Below are positions 47,383 to 50,049 of a stretch of 50,078 bases of DNA, piece by piece. The DNA comes from Streptomyces otsuchiensis (lineage in GTDB: Bacteria; Actinomycetota; Actinomycetes; Streptomycetales; Streptomycetaceae). A program made the translations under genes and the position numbers. The notes under the pieces are model-generated. The model ran no database searches and was not told the DNA's origin. It was given only the letters and a program-made list of their open reading frames with translations. The first letter of the stretch is position 1, and each line of letters opens with the position of its first letter. The stretch is from positions 1 through 50,078 of the forward strand of contig NZ_BHZI01000004.1 in NCBI RefSeq assembly GCF_004305975.1, in the 5' to 3' direction.

Positions 47383-47437
47383 TTGACCGGGAAGAACCGT
47401 GGAGTTCATAGTGTGGAAACGTTCCTGCAAACGTTCC
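47383..47437 (+). promoter_or_regulatory. LacI operator and promoter of the lyase/transporter operon
   Basis: AAACGTTCC occurs at 47417-47425 and 47429-47437, exactly 12 bases apart; the first lies in the near-palindrome GGAAACGTTCC. AACGTT cores are typical LacI-family operators. TTGACC (47383-47388) and CATAGT (47407-47412), 18 bases apart, make a promoter whose start would fall inside the operator. Confidence 0.7.
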
Positions 47438-47453
47438 CATGAAGGGGTTACCC

Positions 47454-48374
47454 ATGACTGAGATCGACCTCCGTGGCCTCGTCCCCGCTCCGGTCACGCC
47501 GTTCACCGCGGACGGCGCCGTCGACCACGAGGCGCTCGCCTCCTACGGGCGCTGGCTCGCCGGCTTCGACGGCGTCAAGGGCCTGGTCTGCCTCGGGCAC
47601 GCGGGCGAGGGCACCTTCCTCACCCAGGACGAGCAGGTGGCCGTCATCCGCACCCTGGTGGAGGCGGTCGGCGGCAAGACGCCGATCATCGCCGGCATCA
47701 CCGGAGAGGGCACCGCCGTCGCGGCGGCCGAGGCCCGCCGGGCCGTGGACGCGGGCGCCGCCGCCGGACTGCTCTACCCCTCGCACGGCTGGCTGCGGTT
47801 CGGCTTCCAGAAGGGCGCGCCGCAGGACCGCTACCGCGTGGTGCACGAGGAGTCCGGCCTGCCCCTGATCCTCTTCCAGTACCCCGACGTCACCAAGGCC
47901 AGCTACGACCTGGAGACCCAGCTGGAGATCGCCGCCCAGCCCGGAGTCTTCGCCACCAAGAACGGCGTCCGCAACATGCGCCGCTGGGACACCGAGATCC
48001 CGGTGCTGCGCGCCGAGCACCCCGAGCTGCAGATCCTGACCTGCCACGACGAGTACCTGCTGCACACCATGTTCGACGTCGACGGCGCCCTGGTCGGCTA
48101 CGGCGGCCTCGCCCCCGAACCGCTCATCGAGCTGATCGAGGCAGGCAAGGCCCGCGACTACGCCGCCGCCCGCGCCCTCCACGACCGGCTGCTCCCGGTC
48201 ACCAAGGCCGTGTACCACCGCGGTTCCCACATGGAGGGCACCGTCGCCCTCAAGCTGGGACTGAAGGCCCGTGGCATCCTGCCCTCCGCGGCGGTACGGT
48301 CGCCGCTGATCGACCTCACACCTGCCGCCGAGCAGGAGATCCACCTCGCGCTGAAGTCCGCCGAGCTGGTCTGA
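47454..48374 (+). CDS. Dihydrodipicolinate synthase/N-acetylneuraminate lyase-family protein
   Basis: A 306-residue class I aldolase fold. The Schiff-base lysine is K169 (VFATKNG), the Tyr is Y143 (FQYPDV) and the carboxylate-binding region is LGHAGEG, a variant of the usual G-T-T-G-E. The variant motif and operon position suggest a catabolic 2-oxo acid or sugar-acid lyase or dehydratase rather than lysine biosynthesis. AAGGGG is six bases before the ATG. The transporter gene follows after about 300 bases with a hairpin between. Confidence 0.88.
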   Translation: MTEIDLRGLVPAPVTPFTADGAVDHEALASYGRWLAGFDGVKGLVCLGHAGEGTFLTQDEQVAVIRTLVEAVGGKTPIIAGITGEGTAVAAAEARRAVDAGAAAGLLYPSHGWLRFGFQKGAPQDRYRVVHEESGLPLILFQYPDVTKASYDLETQLEIAAQPGVFATKNGVRNMRRWDTEIPVLRAEHPELQILTCHDEYLLHTMFDVDGALVGYGGLAPEPLIELIEAGKARDYAAARALHDRLLPVTKAVYHRGSHMEGTVALKLGLKARGILPSAAVRSPLIDLTPAAEQEIHLALKSAELV

Positions 48375-48381
48375 GCCACAC

Positions 48382-48434
48382 CGGTGCCCCGGGGCCGGGC
48401 GCCGTCGCGCCGACACCGCCCGCCCCGGGCACCG
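48382..48434 (+). repeat. Intercistronic hairpin before the transporter gene
   Basis: Arms 48382-48395 and 48422-48434 pair over 13 bp with one bulged base. It may attenuate read-through into the transporter gene. The rest of the 301-base gap 48375-48675 holds no gene that I can support. Confidence 0.5.
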
Positions 48435-48675
48435 CACGGACGAAGGGACACAGGCGGCCCCGGCCCGCCCGCCTCAGGGCGCGCCGCCGCCGTCGCCACC
48501 ACCGGCCCTGCCCCGGGCAGCGGCCCCCTTCCGACGCGCGCCGCACCTCCCGCGGCGCCACCCCTCCATCGAACGACCGCCGCGCGCTGCCTCCCGGCCG
48601 GCGCCCCGGTCCGTGGACAACGCCGTCTCGACCGACCAAACCCACCCCGGCCGTGGAGAGCGAGGAACGATCACC

Positions 48676-50049
48676 GTGTCCGAGCGCACGCATCATCCGG
48701 ACGTCACGAACGTACCGAGAGACACCCCGACCACCACCGACGCAGCGACCACCACCGGCACCCCGCCTCCGTCCGGGGCCGGTCCCGGTGCCGGTGACAC
48801 CGCACCGGACGCGCCGGACGCACCGGACGCACCGGCTCCGCCGTCCGGCCGGCTGGCGCGCGGCGTCCGCCTGCTGGCCATGATCGGCCCGGCCTTCGTC
48901 GTCGGCTCCTGGCAGTTCGGCCCCGGCGCGCTCACCGCCGCCGTACAGGCGGGCAGCGGCTACGGCTACGCCCTGATCTGGGTGGTCGTCCTGTGCAACC
49001 TGCTGATGCTGGCCTTCGCCGACATGAGCATCCGCGTCGGCATCATGTCCGGCACCAGCCTGATCGCCACCATCAAGCAGTACTGCGGCGCCCTGGTCGC
49101 CAAGCTCTCCGGCGTCGGCCTGTTCGTCATCACCCTGATGTTCTCCGTCGGCAACGCGGTCGGCTCCGGTCTCGGGCTCTCCCTGCTCTTCGGCGGCTCC
49201 GTCATCTGGTGGTCGCTCGCCTGCACCGCGCTGGTCGCCTGCGTGCTCCTGGCGCGACGGCTCTACCGGGCGATCGAGAAGGCGCTGCTGGCCGTGGTCG
49301 CCACCATGGCCCTCTCCTTCGTCGTCACGGCGTTCCTCTCCGGGCCCGAGTGGAGCGCCGCCGGTGAGGGGTTCATCCCCTCGCTCCCGGCGGGCGCCGG
49401 GCTGCTCATCGTCGCGATGGTCGGCACCAACTTCTCGATGAACGCCGCGTTCTTCGCCTCCTACGCCAGCCGGGAACGTGGCCTCAAGCGCGAGCAGTAC
49501 CGGCAGACCACCATCGTCGACACCATCCCCGGCATCGTGGCGCCCGGCATCATGACGGTCCTGGTGCTGATCACCGCCGCCACCGTCCTCGGCGGCAACG
49601 GCGAGGAGGCGAGCTTCGGCGACCTCGCCGGGGTGCTGGAGCCCGTCGCCGGTGAGGCCGGCCGGATCATCTTCGCCCTGGGCTTCTTCGGCGCCGCGTT
49701 CTCGTCGATGCTGGCCAACGCGACGGCCGGCTCGACCGTCCTAGCCGACGCCTTCGGCTGGGCCCGGGAGGTCTCCGCGCTGCCGGTGCGGCTGGGAATC
49801 CTCGGCATCCTGGCCTTCGGCGCGGCCGTGACCGTCATCGCCGGTTCTTCACCGGTTCAGCTGATCATCATCGCCCAGGCGCTGACCGTGCTGGTCAAGC
49901 CGCTGCTCGGAGTGGTGCTCCTGGTCCTGGCCAACAACCGCACGCTGATGGGCCCGCTCGGCAACGCGTGGTGGCAGAACGTCTGCGGTGCGGCCGGAGT
50001 GCTCCTGGTCGTCGGCACCTCGATCCATCTGGCGCTCAACCTCTACTGA
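48676..50049 (+). CDS. NRAMP-fold transporter with degenerate metal-binding motifs
   Basis: A 457-residue transporter with an acidic, Pro/Asp-rich N-terminal tail (about 1-58) and roughly eleven membrane helices. It aligns with NRAMP/MntH in helix 1 (GPAF...QAGSGYGYALIW), but the metal-site DPGN reads GPGA (82-85), and in helix 6 the MPH motif reads SMN (MVGTNFSMNAAFF, about 247-260). Without these ligands it is unlikely to move Mn2+ or Fe2+ in the normal way. Cotranscribed with a DHDPS-family lyase under a LacI regulator, it may carry an organic acid. GTG 48676 has GAGGAA about eight bases upstream. Ends 29 bases before the window edge. Confidence 0.85.
   Translation: MSERTHHPDVTNVPRDTPTTTDAATTTGTPPPSGAGPGAGDTAPDAPDAPDAPAPPSGRLARGVRLLAMIGPAFVVGSWQFGPGALTAAVQAGSGYGYALIWVVVLCNLLMLAFADMSIRVGIMSGTSLIATIKQYCGALVAKLSGVGLFVITLMFSVGNAVGSGLGLSLLFGGSVIWWSLACTALVACVLLARRLYRAIEKALLAVVATMALSFVVTAFLSGPEWSAAGEGFIPSLPAGAGLLIVAMVGTNFSMNAAFFASYASRERGLKREQYRQTTIVDTIPGIVAPGIMTVLVLITAATVLGGNGEEASFGDLAGVLEPVAGEAGRIIFALGFFGAAFSSMLANATAGSTVLADAFGWAREVSALPVRLGILGILAFGAAVTVIAGSSPVQLIIIAQALTVLVKPLLGVVLLVLANNRTLMGPLGNAWWQNVCGAAGVLLVVGTSIHLALNLY

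Follow-up and report, generated by a model that had tools for sequence, protein, structure and literature searches.

The closest described systems belong to the NRAMP family (PF01566). Canonical Nramp/MntH transporters (SLC11) carry DPGN in helix 1 and MPH in helix 6. The motifs of these proteins, of the Mg2+-transporting NRMT and of NRAT are described as retaining the helix 1 aspartate throughout, that of NRMT being DxxG-TxxA/T (PMC8806188). Other Nramp-related proteins have neither DPGN nor MPH. A 2026 preprint reports them to be paraphyletic to the canonical Nramps and finds the metal site to be older than the proton path (PMC12873925); the Cellier papers present them as outgroups within PF01566 (PMC9606685, PMC10606218).

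For transport of an organic compound by an NRAMP-family protein there is a precedent. The nearest one is PxpT of Corynebacterium glutamicum, reported to be needed for growth on 5-oxoproline; metal transport is not excluded by its authors (PMC13274462). Two further proteins are reported Mn importers: overexpression of YcsG raises cellular Mn in Bacillus subtilis (PMC10448178), and deletion of MumT (A1S_1266) lowers it in Acinetobacter baumannii (PMC5050338). Both sets of data, as reported, are from whole cells. Both genes reside in 5-oxoproline-type operons, the MumT case having been followed via an A. baumannii protein that fits MumT (NZ_CP077849, 2583500-2594000). The operon of this candidate reads LysR/NRAMP/PxpA/hydro-lyase/PxpBC-like/biotin-carboxylase; the hydro-lyase is a putative one and the PxpBC-like protein a fusion. 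It looks 5-oxoproline-type, and the Mn role reported for MumT has to be seen in this light. The protein displays GPGF in helix 1, F-S-V-G-N in helix 3 and TVGGY in helix 6. A relative encoded on the Klebsiella pneumoniae plasmid pKpN06-SIL is 60% identical to it, and its gene is followed by an annotated PxpA gene; the gene order after this NRAMP gene is that of the candidate mum operon, here under a GntR regulator.

Reports on proteins of this kind thus point both ways, and the LacI/lyase/NRAMP cassette described here adds independent evidence on the organic side. Judged from the titles and abstract openings of the papers listed, no literature on a lyase/NRAMP cassette was found, nor did the literature yield transport, growth or expression data for the clade of the carrier.

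The locus in Streptomyces otsuchiensis

The window, i.e., the whole stretch of DNA that was analysed (50,078 nucleotides), is an entire contig, and the gene of interest ends 29 bases before the contig does. A sequence-only reading of this DNA had placed an NRAMP-fold transporter there, cotranscribed with a lyase that faces a LacI repressor across an operator, and had proposed that the transporter lost its metal ligands and now carries an organic substrate of the lyase. The arrangement was confirmed: the LacI and lyase genes diverge, a palindrome lies between them, and the NRAMP-type gene follows the lyase (Table 1).

Table 1. Features of the regulator-lyase-carrier cassette (positions in the window)
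Feature	Position	Strand	Basis or remark
LacI-family repressor, 335 aa	46332..47339	-	divergent from lyase
Promoter-like TTGACC-18-CATAGT	47383..47412	+	directly 5' of operator
Palindromic LacI operator (putative) GAAACGTTCCTGCAAACGTTCC	47416..47437	+	single genome site
DHDPS-family Schiff-base lyase, 306 aa	47454..48374	+	PF00701 116.1 bits (cut-off 22.1), alignments
Lyase-carrier gap, 301 nt, 81% GC	48375..48675	+	intergenic
NRAMP-related carrier gene, 457 aa	48676..50049	+	GTG start, conserved; PF01566 247.1 bits
Carrier helix 1 motif G82-P-G-A85 (DPGN in MntH)	48919..48930	+	alignment, five MntH rows
Carrier helix 6 motif T251-N-F-S254-M-N256 (A-x-x-M-P-H in MntH)	49426..49443	+	alignment

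With the DHDPS/NAL superfamily (DapA, NanA, KdgD, HOGA) the lyase shares PF00701, the GxxGE loop and the Schiff-base lysine, K169 aligning with that of DHDPS. The open reading frame list starts it at the ATG at 47439; the probable start is the ATG at 47454, because this one is conserved. The lyase differs from the superfamily in having H49-A50 and F141 where aligned DHDPS proteins usually have Thr-Thr and Tyr, which we take to have catalytic roles there; the chemistry of this subfamily may therefore be unusual. Its scores also stay under the curated cut-offs of all seven NCBIfam models that it matched (e.g., DapA equivalog, 107.9 against 206.15). The solved structures that match best are named DapA/DHDPS, and no substrate was identified from the solved-structure matches or the literature.

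The regulator shares 58-60% identity with its counterparts in the corresponding cassettes of Neorhizobium, Agrobacterium and Marivivens. Even with two mismatches allowed, the 6.15-Mb draft genome contains no second copy of its putative operator. Eight cassettes with a divergent LacI gene, from Actinomycetota and Alphaproteobacteria, were aligned (three Streptomyces, three Rhizobiaceae, Marivivens and Azospirillum; Klebsiella variicola was left out), and the operator core GnAACGTTCC-n4-AnCGnTCC does not vary among them. The cassette of Agrobacterium tumefaciens, aligned separately, fits it as well. The promoter-like site was found once, as compared to a mean of 0.0 in shuffled sequences. Two riboswitch matches in the region were both far under their gathering scores and were discarded.

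The carrier protein

The protein belongs to the PF01566 family (E 3.6e-73; 247.1 bits against a Pfam gathering cut-off of 29.8). The GTG start codon and the preceding GAGGAACGAT are common to two Streptomyces relatives. Residues 1 to about 60 form a low-complexity extension rich in Ala, Pro, Thr and Asp, which the aligned relative from Neorhizobium lacks.

The references for canonical proteins were five MntH rows (Escherichia coli, Klebsiella, Paraburkholderia and two Streptomyces). E. coli MntH shows DPGN in helix 1 and ATIMPH in helix 6. The alignment with all five rows agrees with the earlier assignment of GPGA in place of DPGN and of SMN in place of MPH. None of the five aligned ligand positions of the carrier (G82, A85, T251, S254, N256) is occupied by Asp, Glu, His, Met or Cys. 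The deviation is not restricted to the metal site. Among 13 charged positions that are invariant in the MntH rows, one is retained (E201), two are conservatively changed (K72 to R120 and R86 to K134, E. coli to carrier numbering) and ten are replaced, D34, D109, E112, H211, R327 and R328 of E. coli being among them. Both acids of helix 3 have given way to S157 and N160, respectively, and both arginines of helix 9 to L369 and P370; the canonical proton path is hence missing besides the metal ligands. What remains in common with canonical Nramp/MntH is the fold family, E201 and the general helix context. NRMT and the carrier share a Thr in helix 6 at the position of the canonical Ala; the motifs otherwise differ (GxxA-TxxS in the carrier). 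An AlphaFold2 model built from an alignment of three sequences reached a pLDDT of 38 and a pTM of 0.23.

Whether the ligands were ever lost, as the sequence-only reading had it, appears doubtful. If Nramp-related proteins are paraphyletic to the canonical Nramps, as the preprint reports (PMC12873925), this type of carrier may never have had metal ligands.

Of course, the protein could be a divalent-metal importer (Mn or Mg) with an unusual site, perhaps one that supplies a cofactor to the pathway. It scores 88.1 bits with the NCBIfam model Nramp_1, "divalent metal transporter", for which the cut-off is 50, but falls short of the canonical models NF001923 (MntH; 130.1 against 430) and TIGR01197 (49.1 against 272.5). 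It is also the sole PF01566 match in its draft genome. The latter argument was dropped, because DPGN occurs in only 2 of 29 Streptomyces PF01566 loci outside the clade, a search that may have missed some loci. The divergent YcsG and MumT, reported as Mn importers (PMC10448178, PMC5050338), lend the idea more weight, candidate MumT having GPGF; their data, however, are those of whole cells with genes in 5-oxoproline-type operons. The same motifs in metal carriers would count against the sequence-only reading, and candidate MumT goes part of the way: it has GPG in helix 1, though its helix 6 is different. Against metal import stands the absence of any Asp, Glu, His, Met or Cys from the five ligand positions, while even NRMT and NRAT are described as keeping the helix 1 Asp (PMC8806188). 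Control by an orthologous LacI rather than by a metalloregulator points the same way, as do the MFS or TRAP transporters that fill the same slot elsewhere (see below). To our knowledge, Schiff-base lyases of the DHDPS family need no metal. Import of a metal is therefore highly improbable.

The same cassette with other transporters

The arrangement recurs in another phylum. On a plasmid of the alphaproteobacterium Neorhizobium petrolearium a LacI gene diverges from a lyase gene, which is followed by an NRAMP gene, as in the window; the products are 59% (LacI), 67% (lyase) and 55-56% (carrier) identical to ours. This carrier is the one outstanding relative among 84 matching plasmid records.

When plasmids were searched with the lyase of Neorhizobium (E up to 1e-60), 54 records matched. 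In 51 of them an MFS gene lies directly 3' of the lyase, 50 by coordinates and that of K. variicola by annotation; the 50 are on the same strand, with 151-390 nt between the end of the lyase match and the start of the MFS match. The remaining three are the NRAMP gene of N. petrolearium, a TRAP-TAXI transporter in Marivivens and a Microvirga locus with no adjacent transporter, where hydantoinase/oxoprolinase genes, an FAH-family gene and a tripartite-tricarboxylate binding protein are found. Many of the 54 records stem from near-identical strains (18 from Agrobacterium, for instance), so that independent cases are far fewer.

The exchange concerns the third gene. Agrobacterium fabrum C58 and N. 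petrolearium share LacI proteins of 77% and lyases of 87% identity, yet the third gene encodes an MFS protein in the former and an NRAMP protein in the latter. In Marivivens sp. LCG002 a LacI 58% identical to that of the window and a lyase 82.6% identical to that of Neorhizobium precede the TAXI-family TRAP transporter. The best model for all five MFS proteins tested was aromatic-acid/H+ symport, at scores below the cut-off. Five beta- and gammaproteobacterial cassettes were viewed. In four of them a porin gene comes after the MFS gene (OprD-type in two); the fifth, that of K. variicola, has no porin there, and its LacI gene is not divergent. A LysR regulator takes the place of LacI in five of the lyase loci viewed, including the four beta- and gammaproteobacterial ones with a porin.

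MFS and TRAP transporters and porins of the kinds seen carry organic solutes. The simplest reading is therefore that all versions of the cassette import the organic acid that the lyase uses as its substrate, and the NRAMP-related carrier is most likely an organic-acid importer too, because the same regulator-enzyme set elsewhere uses unrelated organic-acid transporters. The sequence-only reading holds in part: its central proposal, an NRAMP-like carrier for an organic substrate of the lyase, is supported by the conservation of the cassette and by the exchange of transporters at the same position, while the loss of ligands, the GPGA/SMN signature and the co-transcription call for correction.

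The carrier might also move another compound of the pathway, be it by export of the lyase product, by exchange of substrate and product, or by uptake of a precursor. A sequence does not reveal in which direction a carrier works, and the class of the third gene varies, which leaves room for such variants. TRAP transporters, however, are uptake systems, and these as well as the porins that accompany four MFS versions point to uptake. We consider such roles very unlikely.

Proposed function

Uptake of an organic acid by the NRAMP-related carrier under control of LacI, followed by cleavage by the lyase, is in our view quite probably what the cassette achieves. This reading is supported by the same LacI/lyase/NRAMP order in two phyla, by the exchange of transporters and by the precedent of PxpT. 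Gene order, motifs, operator conservation and exchange of the third gene (the transporter) only are what is directly seen.

From its position and conservation, the operator, which directly follows the putative promoter of the lyase, would be occupied by LacI as long as inducer is absent. Once expressed, the carrier would import a small organic acid, and the lyase would cleave it via a Schiff base on K169 to central metabolites, as the chemistry of its family suggests. By analogy to the family, transport would follow a LeuT-type alternating access. The unwound G-P-G-A segment of helix 1 may offer its backbone amides to the carboxylate of the substrate; a glycine-rich helix 1 segment, to which this proposed site can be likened, is known from amino-acid carriers of the APC superfamily. 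T251, S254 and N256 of helix 6 would replace the metal ligands by side chains capable of hydrogen bonding. As the residues of the canonical proton path are absent, coupling would have to use another ion or another route, or the protein may be a uniporter.

What makes the cassette valuable is that regulator, operator and enzyme stay constant while the transporter behind them comes from any of three unrelated classes. This amounts to a clean natural experiment; the identity of the substrate and the functional equivalence of the transporters thus become testable by gene replacement.

Relatives of the carrier

The tree comprised 32 rows, the Rhodococcus row, which had formed a long branch in an earlier tree, being left out. 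The carriers of the window, of two Streptomyces and of Neorhizobium group at 100/100. This clade joins five haloarchaeal GPGS/FSIA proteins at 96/96 (94/91 in the earlier tree of 31 rows). The deepest fork is weak (61/27).

The haloarchaeal sister proteins, annotated as "Nramp family", are 31-36% identical to the window carrier and likewise have no acidic ligand in helix 1; they differ by an Ala in place of Asn256, and their five loci contain no lyase/LacI cassette. Gfo/Idh/MocA oxidoreductase genes are instead found within the 6-7 kb flanks of all five. Ten further plasmid loci, a small and chosen sample with flanks of 5-7 kb, hold other types of NRAMP; such genes were found at none of them.

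Candidate MumT shares the GPG of helix 1 with the window carrier at 24% identity, its TVGGY of helix 6 differing from NFSMN, and it belongs to another clade (96/96 for that of the window, with the weak deepest fork to be kept in mind). PxpT, YcsG and MumT resemble the window case in combining an NRAMP-family protein with a catabolic operon, PxpT and YcsG being compared by description only. The neighbours in the PxpT/MumT group are pxpABC genes; in the window they are the lyase and LacI, seen on the upstream side only.

A conserved GPGA/SMN clade, as the sequence-only reading had anticipated, did not emerge. The motifs are GPGN/SIN in Neorhizobium and GPGS/SIA in the haloarchaeal sister group, and GPGA/SMN was accordingly abandoned as a clade signature. 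What is constant across clade and sister group is the missing acid. Nor is its absence from helix 1 rare, another idea that had to be given up: Gly is found there in 22 of 33 rows of a chosen sample. In eight of them an acid follows three residues further on, while 14 have none at either ligand position, and all 14 read GPG[ANSTF]. An organic-catabolic gene lies beside or near 11 of the 14, namely those of the window, Neorhizobium, five haloarchaea (Gfo/Idh/MocA), two further haloarchaea (hydantoinase/oxoprolinase) and two with PxpA. The other three are S. spiramenti and S. bohaiensis, where the contigs break, and a Pseudoalteromonas GPGT row without an evident catabolic neighbour at its locus. 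Rows other than GPG can have such a neighbour as well: an FAH-family gene occurs near the Alicyclobacillus row with its NRMT-like DAGG motif. On two haloarchaeal plasmids, GPGT-type NRAMP genes are directly followed by the genes of hydantoinase/oxoprolinase A and B, which makes a second catabolic setting of organic compounds for NRAMP proteins that lack the ligands.

It is tempting, though slightly less than an even bet, to regard the entire cross-domain GPG clade (Streptomyces, Neorhizobium, haloarchaea and, distantly, PxpT/MumT) as organic-anion carriers with a carboxylate-binding site, from which metal transport by canonical Nramps would be derived. The relatives seen, those of the GPG type included, are annotated as "Nramp family divalent metal transporter", a naming that would then be wrong. 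If the GPG branch indeed carries organic acids, the names, the metabolic models based on them and the presumed ancestry of metal Nramps would all have to change.

Distribution in Streptomyces

The contig scan of genomes revealed two close relatives of the carrier, in S. spiramenti and S. bohaiensis. No other member of the clade turned up in 61 genomes of the genus, our own included, the next best match reaching 79 bits at 26% identity. The lyase is rare, being detected in 2 of 131 genomes of the genus at 1e-60 and in 1 of 98 genomes of the class at 1e-40, our own being counted in both sets, which overlap.

Only in the window and in N. petrolearium were lyase and carrier seen to share a contig. 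In S. bohaiensis the lyase and LacI genes, whose products are 93% and 75% identical, lie at the end of one contig and the carrier gene at the start of another, without an exact overlap between the two contig ends. In a further Streptomyces draft (G207) the lyase and LacI are present, again at 93% and 75% identity, and there is no NRAMP match; S. spiramenti has the carrier and no close match to the lyase. The contigs of G207 and S. bohaiensis stop 46-47 nt past the lyase, where the window has the GC-rich gap, and the carriers of S. bohaiensis and S. spiramenti start 422-433 nt from a contig end. The split occurrence is thus possibly due to draft assemblies that break in this gap.

Co-transcription of lyase and carrier had been taken for granted in the sequence-only reading. 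It is possible, as the coding strand showed no terminator-like site in the gap of the window, but the length and the 81% GC of this gap make it an assumption. The carrier might then be a mere neighbour with its own promoter and function, and the gap, whose last 77 nt right before the start codon are 82% conserved in the two Streptomyces, would fit that. So would the Neorhizobium gap of 255 nt, where a perfect GC-rich inverted repeat of 10 bp without a T-run right after the lyase stop could have weakened read-through, and the split occurrence in the drafts of G207 and S. spiramenti. The identical order of three genes in two phyla, however, argues against this, and on the coding strand of the Neorhizobium gap, too, no terminator-like site was detected. 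That the two genes are unrelated neighbours is very unlikely.

A common PF01566 type of Streptomyces is a different one: its helix 1 reads GAGD and its helix 6 GGVGGT, which is neither canonical nor NRMT.
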